From assembly GCF_000183135.1 (NCBI RefSeq), contig NC_014734.1:1178001-1242000 (forward strand): 64,000 nt of DNA, written 5' to 3'. Position 1 is the stretch's first letter. Each line of letters begins with the position of its first letter. The notes below the pieces were generated by a model. The model ran no database searches and had not been told where the DNA came from. It saw nothing but the letters and a program-made list of their open reading frames with translations. This DNA comes from Paludibacter propionicigenes WB4 (GTDB lineage: Bacteria; Bacteroidota; Bacteroidia; Bacteroidales; Paludibacteraceae). Of the stretch, positions 11,402 through 38,667 are shown one piece after another. The translations under genes and the position numbers were made by a program.

Positions 11402-13723
11402 TCAATGTAACCGCTGGCGTTCTTCCGAGTTTTCTGACTTTGAAGAATATTTATACTTAGATCTTCCTATTTGATATTTTATGCTTATTCCAAAATAAGT
11501 ATCGTCAGCATCAAATACATTTAAATTCTGTCCCGACAGCACGGAATGCTGACGTGATGTCAACTGATTAAACAAGTCGTTCGCTGTAACTGTGCATGTA
11601 AGTGACTCCCGCAAAAAACTTCGTTGTAAGGAAAAATATAAATTCCAATATGGTTCATTATAACTCGTTGTCCAAGATCCTTTTCCATTATACTGATAAC
11701 CGATATCAAACAGAACCTTAGCCGGCAGTTTTATCGAATTCTGAAGTGTTATATTCTTTCCCGGAGTATTATTATTTCGTCTTACATTATTATCATCAAT
11801 ATAGGGATATGAACTGGTATAAAATAATCCGGACAATGTAATGCTCCACCAGGGTAACAACTGTTTGTTGAAAGTTAAAGAGGCAGTATAACGACCCACG
11901 TTATCTCCGTTTATAAAACGAACATCAGTGAGCTGTGGCTGCACTTCATCCTTATATACCATGAAATAAATGGGGTGTATAAGGTAACTATAACCAACCC
12001 TGAATGAAATGAAACTGAAAAATTTGCAGGATAACTGGAATGAATGTATATCCGTCGAAATTAAGTTGGGGTTGCCTTTTCGGTTAGTCAACGAATCTAC
12101 GTAAATGCTTGGGTCAAGTGCCGAAAAAGAAGGACGGGATATACGTTTACTGTATGAAATTCCGGTTGAGAAAGATTCGGAACAAGAATAGTTTATTGAC
12201 GCACTGGGAAATAAGCCAAACTGATTAGCATCTGAAAAAACAACATAATCTTTCTGTATTTTCCTGAAGGTTTTTTCGCCTCTTAAGCCGACTCTGAATT
12301 CAAGTTTATCATCCAACTTCATATTTAGAGAAGCATACGCAGAAAGGTTTTGTTCATCTGTCAGATAATGCTGATACAGATTGGTGCTACCTGTCATATC
12401 GGTGATGTCATTTCCTTTTATCCAGTAATATTTTGTCCCGATATCCAATAACATTGTCTTACTGAACGGTTTTGTATAATCGGCTTTTATCGAGTAAATT
12501 ACCGGCTTTCCTTTATTATAATTTTTATTCCAGAACGGCGGATTATTCTCATTACCTACAATTTGATTGTAAAAATTATTTGTGTTCTCCTTATTTCCAA
12601 TGGTATAGTCTGCTATCAGTTTAATATTCTGCCCCAACGAATCTATTTTACAATTATAACTTATAGTATTATTAGTTTGCCATGATTGTATAAATTTCTC
12701 CACATGCGTATTGAAATTATCGAATGCCGGGTTTGAGAAATACGAAAGTTGATTTCGGTTTATTTTACTAGCATCTGTATAATAGCCATTACTCTGAAAA
12801 ATAAGACTTTGGTTCTTTGCGATATCAATATCTACAGATAAACGATACGAAGTTTCTGAATCAAATGATACAGATTCTGCATGCGTTTCTAAATTATTAT
12901 TGACGGTTATAACACTGTAATTATCTTCAAAGGTTTTATTGTTCATTGTTGAATGATCAACATACAAGTTCGTTGTTATTTTTCCTGCTTTCAAGGCTCC
13001 TTCTATAAATTCGCTTACCGAACCTTTTCTTGACTGCGTAAAGTCACCTCCCAGACGTAACAGATATTGATCTGCTTTATCGAGCGTATTAATCAAAATA
13101 ACTGCATGTCCATCAGCATCATAAGCAGCTGATGGATTATCAATAATTTCGAGAGATTGTATATTTTTGGGATTGAGTATTCTAACCTCATTCATAGAAT
13201 GAACTTCTTTACCATCAATATAATATTTGGGTATCCCCTTGCCTGCTACGATAAGTTCACCTGATGTATCTCTAATCAGTCCGGGTGTCTTTTGAAGCAT
13301 GTCCGAGCCATTTAATGCATTGGACAATATGCTGTTTTCCACATTAATAATGATACGGTCAGCTGTACTTCGAATGGTGGGTTGCTGCGCTATGACAGTA
13401 ATTTCTTTTATGCAGTTAGGTTGTAACACAAGAGTAGGTAATGAAGTGACACCTAATCTTGTTTTCACTGTCTTTTTTAGAGCTGCATAGCCAAAAGAGG
13501 TAATTTTAATTATATATTCGTTGGGTTGTATATCCTTCAGTGTATAAATACCGTCAGTAAATGAGGTGCTTGAAATAGTTGAAGAATCAGATGGCGAGAT
13601 TAAAACAAGATTAAACTGGCTTACCGGTTGATTATCCGGGTCAACGACTTTTCCTGTTAAAACATTTTCAGATCGTGAAACTACGGCAAAAAGGCTAAGA
13701 ATAAAACAAACTAAAATTCTCAT
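11402..13723 (-). CDS. TonB-linked outer-membrane beta-barrel protein (CarboxypepD_reg-like, plug, OMP_b-brl_3 type)
   Basis: 773 residues. A signal peptide (1-18) is followed by a carboxypeptidase-regulatory-like Ig domain (ENVLTGKVVDPDNQPVSQFNLV). A plug-like domain comes next at about 110-215 (LNGSDMLQKTPGLIRDTSG, then LEIIDNPSAAYDADGH). The remainder is beta strands with alternating aromatics, as in OMP_b-brl_3 proteins related to TonB-dependent receptors. It is not a SusC protein, and no SusD partner is present, so the substrate is unknown. The final strand ends without an aromatic terminal residue. Two palindromes upstream (13743-13794) may control it. Confidence 0.85.
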   Translation of the reverse strand: MRILVCFILSLFAVVSRSENVLTGKVVDPDNQPVSQFNLVLISPSDSSTISSTSFTDGIYTLKDIQPNEYIIKITSFGYAALKKTVKTRLGVTSLPTLVLQPNCIKEITVIAQQPTIRSTADRIIINVENSILSNALNGSDMLQKTPGLIRDTSGELIVAGKGIPKYYIDGKEVHSMNEVRILNPKNIQSLEIIDNPSAAYDADGHAVILINTLDKADQYLLRLGGDFTQSRKGSVSEFIEGALKAGKITTNLYVDHSTMNNKTFEDNYSVITVNNNLETHAESVSFDSETSYRLSVDIDIAKNQSLIFQSNGYYTDASKINRNQLSYFSNPAFDNFNTHVEKFIQSWQTNNTISYNCKIDSLGQNIKLIADYTIGNKENTNNFYNQIVGNENNPPFWNKNYNKGKPVIYSIKADYTKPFSKTMLLDIGTKYYWIKGNDITDMTGSTNLYQHYLTDEQNLSAYASLNMKLDDKLEFRVGLRGEKTFRKIQKDYVVFSDANQFGLFPSASINYSCSESFSTGISYSKRISRPSFSALDPSIYVDSLTNRKGNPNLISTDIHSFQLSCKFFSFISFRVGYSYLIHPIYFMVYKDEVQPQLTDVRFINGDNVGRYTASLTFNKQLLPWWSITLSGLFYTSSYPYIDDNNVRRNNNTPGKNITLQNSIKLPAKVLFDIGYQYNGKGSWTTSYNEPYWNLYFSLQRSFLRESLTCTVTANDLFNQLTSRQHSVLSGQNLNVFDADDTYFGISIKYQIGRSKYKYSSKSENSEERQRLH

Positions 13724-34260: not shown

Positions 34261-35718
34261 TTGTCAGAAACAGAATTCTCAGAATTAATTAATTTACAGA
34301 ATAAGAAAAACAGCTTGGTTGGTAAACTAATGAATGTTTATAGGCTGGGTGCTGAGTGGGACATAAAAAAAATAAAAATGAGATTTGATACGGACAGACA
34401 AACACTATCGGACTTAAATATATTCCCTCAAGAAAGAGGAATAAAATCTGTCTTTGATTATTACAACAAAACTCAAACTAAAGGAGGAAAAGATTTGCTC
34501 CTGAGTATAATGAGAGAGCCTCTGAACGATTTGACAGAAATAAATTCCAGAATTTATTCGATCAAATTTTTACATGACAATGATTTATACTGCGTCCTTG
34601 AACGCAAGGATATAGATGCTATCGAGTACTATCTAAAACTAGATAAATCTGTCTTAAAAAACCATATTATAGATTCGATATATGATTACTACTCGAATCG
34701 TGTAAAACCTACTAATGAATACTATTTAATTTCAAGAGGAATTAACTGCCTCTATAAGCACGTCAGAAATCTGATTGATTTTTTTGAAAACGATGACATA
34801 CCAGAGTTTCCCGGTTTTTTAGCCGAATTTAAAAGTGAAGTAGACAGAATAAAATATCATCCTGATTTCAACTCATTTATTAATAAAGACAGAAAAAAAC
34901 TGAACTTAAGACAAATAAACAGATTCGACCATTTGATTAGAAAAAGTGAGAAAGAAACAATTGTAAAGGTATTGGAATTTACATACATGTTTGATAGTTA
35001 TATTTCCTTAGCCTGCGTTGCAAAAGAACAAAAATTAGGATTTCCAACACTAATCGAAACGTCAAATCCAAAAATAAAAATTGAGGGTTTCTTTCATCCA
35101 TTGATTGAGAACCCTGTGAAAAATGACATTAATTTTAGCAAAGATGAAAATCTTTGTTTTGTTTCGGGTGCTAATATGGCGGGTAAATCTACATTTCTAA
35201 AATCAATTGGATTATGCGTTTATCTTTCTCATATTGGTTTTCCAGTTCCTGCAAGAACAATGCTAACGCCTTTATTTCATGGGCTATATACAACCATCAA
35301 TATCTCTGACAATATAAACAAAGGTTATAGTCATTATTACAGTGAAGTAAAAAGAGTAAAAGATATTACTCTGCTGATTAAGGAGCGAAAAAGGGTTTTT
35401 GTCATATTTGATGAATTATTTAGAGGAACTAACGTGAAAGATGCATTTGACGCAACTTTAATGATTACGCGTGGATTTTCAAGAATTAAGAACTCTATTT
35501 TTTTAATTTCGACACATATAGTTGAAGTTGGAAAAGAACTTGAAAAATCAGACAGTATTTGTTTTAAGTGTTTTGAATCAAAACTACATAGAGAAAAACC
35601 AGTATATAATTACATACTGAAAGATGGCCTTTCTTCCGAAAGACTTGGATTGACAATTATGAAGAACGAAGGAATTCTAGAAATGATTGACGAAATTGCG
35701 GAAAACGAAAATAAGTAA
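34261..35718 (+). CDS. short MutS-family ATPase (MutS-related, no mismatch-recognition domain)
   Basis: 485 residues with only the MutS core (lever/clamp) and ATPase domains. Walker A is GANMAGKST at 303-311, and Walker B is VFVIFDELFRGTN near 379-391, followed by the signature STHI. The N-terminal mismatch-binding domain of MutS and the Smr domain of MutS2 are both absent. Such orphan MutS-related proteins occur in Bacteroidota, with unclear roles in DNA repair or recombination. The start is TTG at 34261, as an in-frame stop precedes it closely. ATGs at 34330 and 34378 are alternatives; the latter would give the shorter form typical of the family. Confidence 0.85.
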   Translation: MSETEFSELINLQNKKNSLVGKLMNVYRLGAEWDIKKIKMRFDTDRQTLSDLNIFPQERGIKSVFDYYNKTQTKGGKDLLLSIMREPLNDLTEINSRIYSIKFLHDNDLYCVLERKDIDAIEYYLKLDKSVLKNHIIDSIYDYYSNRVKPTNEYYLISRGINCLYKHVRNLIDFFENDDIPEFPGFLAEFKSEVDRIKYHPDFNSFINKDRKKLNLRQINRFDHLIRKSEKETIVKVLEFTYMFDSYISLACVAKEQKLGFPTLIETSNPKIKIEGFFHPLIENPVKNDINFSKDENLCFVSGANMAGKSTFLKSIGLCVYLSHIGFPVPARTMLTPLFHGLYTTINISDNINKGYSHYYSEVKRVKDITLLIKERKRVFVIFDELFRGTNVKDAFDATLMITRGFSRIKNSIFLISTHIVEVGKELEKSDSICFKCFESKLHREKPVYNYILKDGLSSERLGLTIMKNEGILEMIDEIAENENK

Positions 35719-36842: not shown

Positions 36843-36915
36843 CATTGTGTGAATTAAAAAAAATAATTCAATCATTGATATTGTAAAATATAGTTTTTAT
36901 CTTTGGAGCTGAAAT
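36843..36915 (+). promoter_or_regulatory. duplicated promoter module, copy B
   Basis: ATTG (36874-36877), a 20-base spacer and TATCTTTG (36898-36905), about 100 bases before the plug-domain pseudogene. It is nearly identical in layout and sequence to 33268-33340. The remaining parts of this gap (36626-36842, 36916-37004) hold no supported gene. Confidence 0.65.
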
Positions 36916-37004: not shown

Positions 37005-37710
37005 ATGAAAACAAACAAAAATTTTTAGTGATTTTCATTCTGTCTTTAGCCTCAGTTTCGTTTGCTCAGAATTCAGGAAAAAAGTATTTTATTACGGGAC
37101 AGGTTCTTGACGTTAATAGCAATCATGTATCGGGTGCAACTGTGTTGGTGGATAACAAAAGTACAGATATTGTTACCGACGAAAAAGAAAACTATAAGGT
37201 GATGGTAAAACCCGATGCCCAAATGCTATCAGTTTTCACGCTATCGGGCGGACTTATCAACGAAGAAATTAAGGGGCGTGTGGTCATTATTTTAAATTTG
37301 AAACGGCAATATCTCAAAAGGTAACGCCTCAAAAAGAGAGCCCGGAAAATGAAGAAGTAAATATAGGCTACGGAACGGCTCAGAAAAAAAACATGGCCAC
37401 TAACGTTGCCACTGTTGATGGAAAAAAGAACAAATATGCATCCTATCAAAATGTGTATGAACTGATTCGGGGAGAGGTTCCGGGCGTTGAAGTAAACGGA
37501 ACTAAAGTTAGAATCAGAGGTTTAGGTACCATTAATGGTTTAAGTGATCCATTGGTGCTGGTTAATAATGTTGAGGTGTCGATCGAGTCTTTCGGGTCTA
37601 TCGATCCTCGAATGGTTAAATCTATAAACATTCTTAAAAGTCCTGATGCGTCGATCTATGGGGCAAAAGCTGCGAATGGAGTAATACTGATAAAGTTGCT
37701 AGAAAAATAA
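37005..37710 (+). pseudogene. frameshifted plug-only TonB-type protein
   Basis: A diverged tandem copy of the gene at 37960. Aligned to it, the coding line is broken twice by single-base losses: one in the aaaaattttt run at about 37017-37026, only five codons in, and one in cattattttaaa at about 37285-37294. Between and after the breaks the protein is well preserved: TGQVLDVNSNHVSGATVLVD, then GYGTAQKKNMATNV, then IRIRGLGTINGLSDPLVLV-type plug sequence to KLLEK. The promoter is intact. Recent inactivation, slippage-based switching or sequence error in homopolymers are all possible. Confidence 0.75.
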
Positions 37711-37872
37711 TAACTTTCTTATATTCAATGCAAATTAGTCTGTTGAACTTTGCCCCGAAAGGGCTACATGAATGCTTAATAGAGATATAGGAAAAGCAAT
37801 TTTATTGGATAGAAAGTGGATAGTCAGAAACTTTCATTCAGCATAATTAAATTAAAGAACCCTCTGCAAACT

Positions 37873-37880
37873 TAGTTTTG
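37873..37880 (+). promoter_or_regulatory. candidate -7 element for the intact plug-only gene
   Basis: TAGTTTTG fits TAnnTTTG, about 80 bases before the ATG at 37960. A small gcccc-gaaa-gggct hairpin (37752-37765) lies further upstream, with no other structure in this 249-base gap. Confidence 0.4.
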
Positions 37881-37959
37881 TAATCTCTGCGATAATAAAT
37901 TTATCCTGAGTAAGTTCTATATAAACAGATTACCCTTAAATTTAAAACAAAAATAAGTC

Positions 37960-38667
37960 ATGAAAACAAACAAAATCTTTTTAGTACTTTTCATTCTTAC
38001 TTTATCGTGTAGTTCGTTTGCTCAGAACTCTGGAAAGAAGTATTATATTACCGGACAGGTACTTGATGCTAATGGCAAGCCAATATTTGGAGCCAAAGTG
38101 TTAGTAGACAATAAAAGTACCGATGTTTCTACCGATGTAAAAGGTAATTACAAGGTAAAAGTAAAACCCGATGCCACCATATTATCAGTTTTCTCCTTGT
38201 CCAGTGGACTACTAATCAATGAAGAAATTAATGGTCGTGTGGTAATAAACTTTAAATTTGAAGATGCAATGTCTCAAAGTGTATCGCCACAAAATGCGAA
38301 TAAGGAAAATGAGGAAGTAAATATCGGTTACGGAACCATTAAAAAGAAAAATATGTCTACTAAGGTTCCTTCATATGATGGACAGAAGAGCAAATACGCA
38401 GCCTATCAAAATGTGTATGATATGATACGTGCCGAACTTCCAAATGTGCAGGTAGTAGGCGATAAAATAAGAGTAAAAGGTGCTTATGACACCAACAGTA
38501 GTCAGATTGACGCAATGATACTTGTGGACGGTGTAGAAATCTCATCGGTAGACGGCATTATTCCTCGGATGGTAAAGTCTATAAGTGTTCTTACTGGTGC
38601 TGATGCTTCTATCTACGGGGTTAGATCCGGACATGGTGTAATACTGATAACGCTGGTAAAGGAATAA
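37960..38667 (+). CDS. plug-only TonB-receptor-like protein (CarboxypepD_reg plus plug, no barrel)
   Basis: 235 residues. A signal peptide (1-21, ending SSFAQ) precedes a carboxypeptidase-regulatory-like domain at about 28-95 (YYITGQVLDANGKPIFGAKV, then NKSTDVSTDVKGNYKVKV). After a short linker with GYGTIKKKN, a SusC-type plug domain follows at about 135-235 (QNVYDMIRAELPNVQVVGDK, then LVDGVEISSVDGIIPRMVKS, then GADASIYGVRSGHGVILI). Normal SusC/TonB receptors continue into a barrel of some 700 residues; here the protein simply stops. It may be a soluble periplasmic partner, regulator or decoy for a TonB receptor. A broken copy lies directly upstream. Confidence 0.85.
   Translation: MKTNKIFLVLFILTLSCSSFAQNSGKKYYITGQVLDANGKPIFGAKVLVDNKSTDVSTDVKGNYKVKVKPDATILSVFSLSSGLLINEEINGRVVINFKFEDAMSQSVSPQNANKENEEVNIGYGTIKKKNMSTKVPSYDGQKSKYAAYQNVYDMIRAELPNVQVVGDKIRVKGAYDTNSSQIDAMILVDGVEISSVDGIIPRMVKSISVLTGADASIYGVRSGHGVILITLVKE

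Follow-up and report, generated by a model that had tools for sequence, protein, structure and literature searches.

A lone SusC-type plug gene and its broken sister copy in Paludibacter propionicigenes WB4 point to a family of secreted plug proteins without a barrel

Plugs are usually thought of as parts of TonB-dependent receptors. In the receptors of the SusC/RagA type (TIGR04056, NCBIfam) a signal peptide, an NTE, a GYG motif and the plug fold are found together with a barrel in the same protein. Arg/Glu contacts between plug and barrel are known from FepA and FhuA, and the plug and barrel of FhuA can function when made apart. The isolated plug of FepA is described as unfolded. Deletion or replacement of the Ton box of BT1763 (residues 81-86) is reported to cause growth defects on levan (PMC7782687). 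A different envelope protein, BamP of Flavobacterium johnsoniae, is described as periplasmic, with an N-terminal domain and a linker and with several homologues in one genome; its N-terminal domain binds POTRA 4 and 5, and its linker lies inside the BamA barrel (PMC12611786).

The DNA analysed here, referred to as the window, is a stretch of 64,000 bases (1178001-1242000) of the 3,685,504-base single-contig genome of Paludibacter propionicigenes WB4; positions below are those of the window, and the two genes described here, with their parts, lie on the forward (+) strand. It contains two neighbouring genes for a plug without a barrel, which we call lone plugs. Gene 2 (37960..38667) is intact and encodes 235 amino acids in a single frame. 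Its order is signal peptide, SusC-type NTE and TonB-receptor plug, and the open reading frame ends with the plug. The NTE or CarboxypepD_reg domain spans residues 28-103 (38041..38268) and the plug body residues 144-235 (38389..38664), both located by Pfam, the predicted model and structure comparison; in between, a degenerate Ton-box position (NEEVNIGYG) occupies residues 117-125 (38308..38334). In Pfam, gene 2 passes the cut-offs for CarbopepD_reg_2 (PF13715; 33.2 against 32.2 bits) and Plug (27.7 against 23.9 bits), whereas with the SusC/RagA model TIGR04056 it scores 84.9 bits and stays under the required 368.25. No barrel-like match was found in the 3 kb 3' of the gene. The initial annotation, which read both genes as a signal peptide, a CarboxypepD_reg domain and a SusC-like plug without a barrel, is borne out. 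The AlphaFold model (mean pLDDT 80.9, pTM 0.40) is poorly predicted in the linker, with pLDDT below 50 at residues 106-117, 124-127 and 134-141. Its predicted NTE fold compares with the SusC NTE 9hfj (Z 12.4, rmsd 2.1, 78 residues) and its predicted plug fold with the BT1762-63 transporter (6z9a_B; Z 9.6, rmsd 2.2, 89 residues). A Foldseek search with the model gave a single PDB match at E <=0.001, a SusC NTE.

Gene 1 (37005..37710) is a broken lone-plug gene with signal peptide, NTE and plug spread over three frames. It reads for seven codons in frame 0, then in frame 2 and then in frame 1, in agreement with the two single-base losses proposed earlier: there is a net loss of one base near 37017-37026, in an A5T5 stretch at codons 5-8 (frame 0 stops at TAG 37026-37028), and of one more near 37285-37294, around a T4 run at the end of the NTE domain. 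The frame is broken relative to intact gene 2 and to the relatives L043-L046. Both sites had been described as A/T runs, a generous label in a window with 1,340 such runs of at least 4 bases, 505 of at least 5 and 158 of at least 6. The longest run of the gene itself, an A8 at 37384..37391, is in frame. At 37022-37030, the TAG that closes the seven-codon remnant overlaps a GTG start (TAGTG) of a 98-amino-acid NTE-only frame at 37028-37324.

Apart from its two breaks, gene 1 is well preserved, as the initial annotation had stated for its promoter and remaining sequence. A promoter-like -7 element (TAnnTTTG) is found at 36898..36905 upstream of gene 1 and at 37873..37880 upstream of gene 2; the element lies at a similar distance upstream of gene 2 and of the single-copy relatives L043 and L044, and an exact match is absent from the 13 other upstream regions scanned. 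Read across the breaks, the pieces contain no additional stop codon. The 3' piece matches Plug at 56.8 bits; for CarbopepD_reg_2, the 5' piece reaches 25.1 bits, which is under the cut-off. Values of pN/pS against relatives, in which changes before and after the breaks are pooled, are 0.23-0.44 and fall inside the 0.13-0.46 spanned by intact pairs; together with the lack of a further stop, this suggests that the breaks are recent. The gene is a mosaic, with its 5' half closer to L043, L044 and gene 2 and its 3' half closer to L045 and L046. The identity of the 3' half to the latter two (0.87-0.89 in two 80-column windows) points to constraint until recently.

In order to compare lone plugs with receptors, 45 SusC N-termini were aligned; these come from 57 loci, 12 of which were omitted without a rule, and all were found via similarity to lone plugs. 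In this N-terminal third they are 21-35% identical to gene 2. The counts that follow refer to sequences related by descent and are not independent trials. The hydrophobic Ton-box triad is found in 0 of 20 lone plugs and in 44 of 45 SusC proteins. The plug loop between the GVxV and IRG strands, which after FepA and FhuA we take to be the substrate-facing apical loop, has 8-9 residues in lone plugs and 15-18 in SusC, and the linker from NTE to Ton box has 15-21 residues as compared with 9-10. Positions 212-213 are mostly KG in lone plugs and KD in SusC (G213 in 18/20, D in 45/45). Further residues private to the lone plugs include Y149 (19/20), F98 (20/20) and V205 (20/20). The GYG that follows the Ton box persists: G123 and Y124 are each present in 19 of 20 lone plugs. 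At plug positions at least 95% identical in SusC, lone plugs retain 243 of 278 structural cells and only 62 of 120 polar ones.

The search for other barrel-less plug proteins proposed earlier was carried out, and 20 intact lone genes beside gene 1 entered the comparison. Within the WB4 genome, 23 matches to the gene 2 protein were found, which, genes 1 and 2 aside, belong to frames of 742-1238 amino acids. At the family level, close orthologs in G033, G093, G144 and G204 are encoded in short frames of 234-235 amino acids. Scoring the best 7-9 candidates per genome, as at the family and phylum levels, short relatives occur in at least 6 of the 392 further genomes examined in the order, and a draw across the phylum gave at least two among the matches listed (G980 and G828). 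Counting the central genome in each case, 6 out of the 11 genomes that surround G397 carry a lone plug, as do 2 out of the 6 surrounding G656. In the genus it is present in 3 of 48 genomes, our own included, and a search of 394 other genomes of the class with a short alignment specific for lone plugs (E <=1e-12, best 15 candidates per genome) gave no new ones. This suggests that the family is rare and patchy. A frame of 304 amino acids in G770:C2 extends past the plug and was not counted as lone. A short secreted plug in G238 (L048:979-1659) has the longer, SusC-like loop and falls outside the lone-plug set; judging from this protein, barrel-less plugs may have more than one origin. In the literature searched, no published lone-plug family was recognised.

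In a tree of 21 lone rows (20 intact genes and gene 1) and the 45 SusC N-termini, a single branch (100/100) separates the lone plugs from SusC. The alignment and tree leave out the short plug of G238 and the lone plugs found later, namely those of G1407, G1409 and G1411 and the two of G1410. Four close pairs of lone plugs have dS/dN of 0.41/0.04, 0.43/0.05, 0.30/0.08 and 0.39/0.07, that is, dN/dS of about 0.1-0.3. Homologs joined to a barrel, taken by the initial annotation as a sign of truncation, did not appear: 0 of 21 lone genes are joined to a barrel or trailed by its remains. In the 1.8-3 kb 3' of these genes, six barrel queries detected no barrel remains on the same strand, the only same-strand barrel being an intact, separate receptor gene 3' of L046. 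What else matched on the 3' side was either, for 5 genes, the end of the plug in the following tandem copy or, for L066, a SusC on the opposite strand.

Adjacent pairs of lone-plug genes are found in WB4, G656, G593, G580 and G1410. In G543 two lone plugs are separated by one gene; at this locus (L068:7612-10411), CarboxypepD_reg proteins of 343 and 329 amino acids alternate with the two plugs. Copy number at a shared site varies within one genus: G580 and G1410 carry two copies there, and G397, G1409, G1411 and G1407 a single one. At all 6 loci compared in that genus, a gene for an S9 peptidase adjoins the plug. In G078 (L047) the lone plug is reduced to a relic of about 136 bases, and L039, one of 5 loci obtained from a search of genome contigs with the lone plug, holds the same relic. 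A copy in G1411 that seemed broken by one TAG was rejected as such, since this is only a stop near the natural C-terminus. We hypothesize that lone-plug copies duplicate and get lost at fixed sites, and that gene 1 would be one recent loss while gene 2 remains.

The neighbourhood was compared at 20 lone-plug loci, comprising 155 open reading frames within 5 kb, and no fixed partner gene was found among them. Of 53 similar pairs, 41 lie within a group. Between groups, no class other than genes for SusC-type receptors was seen repeatedly (L046, L063, L065 and L066; 4 of 20 loci), with about 2.6 of 20 expected by chance at the density of the WB4 genome (48 Plug matches per 3.7 Mb). Such an excess is no more than a hint that lone plugs and receptors are linked. 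Upstream of the WB4 pair, at 34261-35718, lies a gene for a MutS-like ATPase that matches MutS_V and falls just under the cut-off for MutS_III; it has no counterpart among the lone-plug loci compared.

Several readings of these proteins have to be weighed. Lone plugs share their domain order with the N-terminus of SusC and might hence be regarded as degenerate remains of truncated SusC genes. However, the separate clade, purifying selection, private loop and linker lengths and the lack of barrel remains downstream rule this out for the sampled family and leave truncation with next to no probability. We are confident that lone plugs constitute a family of their own: secreted proteins that consist of NTE, linker and plug, lack a barrel, are under purifying selection and occur scattered in Bacteroidota. 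It had been proposed that a barrel-less plug acts as a free periplasmic regulator or inhibitor of TonB receptors. The barrel-less plug family behind this proposal is real and selected, and a decoy that competes for TonB or blocks receptor barrels would agree with the retained NTE, plug core and GYG motif and with the SusC-type genes near some of the loci; moreover, the NTE possibly helps to choose among TonB proteins, as suggested in the study that reported on the BT1763 Ton box (PMC7782687). However, the inhibitor part of the proposal is weakened by the loss of the triad, the halved loop and the polar invariants, of which about half are kept. The loss of the Ton-box core, taken together with the growth defects reported for BT1763 (PMC7782687), argues against the usual engagement of TonB. 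Since the triad is absent, the loop shorter and the linker longer, the aligned residues make a Ton-box decoy unlikely and docking inside a SusC barrel less likely, while some contact with TonB may persist, the GYG being kept. Overall, we consider an inhibitory decoy improbable; a lone plug may act as a regulator in some other way. The plug might also complete a plug-less barrel made elsewhere, as the FhuA case would allow. However, no candidate barrel of this kind was found in the WB4 genome: its 30 barrel matches all lie in frames of at least 624 amino acids and 29 have a Plug in the same frame, the only exception, by pairing by eye, being the 773-amino-acid frame at 11402-13723 of the window. 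Such a split receptor is very doubtful. The lone plugs are secreted and have no barrel, no Ton-box core and no fixed partner gene; our preferred reading, to which we give an even chance, is a soluble partner-binding protein of the periplasm. A receptor plug would have been reused as a scaffold, with NTE and plug core binding some envelope partner, and it would neither transport nor undergo the usual pulling by TonB. As its partner, we would most expect something that also meets the NTE and plug half of SusC, candidates being the barrel-assembly machinery, a chaperone or the periplasmic face of a receptor; that it belongs to the biogenesis of SusC is a tentative and rather unlikely specification.

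The broken state of gene 1 can be read in different ways as well. On/off switching by slippage in the A/T runs, as suggested by the initial annotation, would suit the small breaks in A/T-rich surroundings and the otherwise intact gene with its promoter-like element. It is not supported, however: the runs at the breaks are 4-5 bases long and the A8 at 37384 stays in frame, no long homopolymer marks either break in a window that offers many runs of at least six bases, and two breaks would need joint correction. In addition, the published WB4 genome shows a single state (PMC3072083). It is equally hard to credit that ribosomes rescue gene 1 by slipping -1 twice, at heptamers of the form X XXY YYZ that lie in phase. 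Such heptamers are present: the first stop is directly preceded by A AAT TTT, and the second break has both T TTA AAT and A AAT TTG; -1 slips there would give back the full length. However, single deletions in ten intact family genes leave such a heptamer at 16% of all positions (23 of 160 early positions, 44 of 169 A/T runs of at least 4), and heptamers at both breaks, which were spotted post hoc, would arise by chance in a few percent of cases; two serial slips would also give little protein. Indels in A/T-rich sequence are a 454-type error, and the two breaks fit this pattern, in which case gene 1 would actually be intact. However, the WB4 genome was polished with 337.6x Illumina data and has a stated error rate under 1 in 100,000 (PMC3072083), and sequencing error is unlikely as the cause, although less remote than switching or rescue. 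Hence an ordinary recent pseudogene is the reading of gene 1 that we hold with good confidence. For the explanation as a whole, comprising a selected barrel-less family, a soluble periplasmic partner-binder and a recent loss of gene 1, the odds appear slightly favourable.

A broken gene 1 alone would be ordinary. The lone-plug clade as such, having shed the core of the Ton box, offers a natural test of whether a free plug can fold and of what a plug binds. Compared with SusC, gene 2 lacks the barrel and the family has the altered Ton box, loop and linker described above, with signal peptide, NTE, GYG motif and plug fold in common. Another barrel-less plug is encoded in the same genome: among the 48 Plug matches, the only frame besides the lone pair whose length leaves no room for a barrel encodes an M56/BlaR1 peptidase of about 543 amino acids (G000:C1:422608-422799, L100). 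It differs from the lone plugs in its Peptidase_M56 domain, with a partial plug at the C-terminus (profile positions 38-107) that has a GYG motif and the SusC-type KDASA motif. The third system to be compared is the barrel-assembly machinery of Flavobacterium johnsoniae, in which chain E of 9n2d, presumably BamP, displays an NTE-like fold at residues 22-103 (Z 8.1, rmsd 2.6, 78 residues against the gene 2 model). Sequence matches to gene 2 up to E 10 do not include 9n2d, and BamP ends with three helices, whereas lone plugs end with the plug. NTE-type folds are common and many unrelated matches appear in the structure comparison, so this likeness carries small weight. Judging from the model, an NTE-like fold may nevertheless be common to receptors and to part of the machine that assembles barrels.
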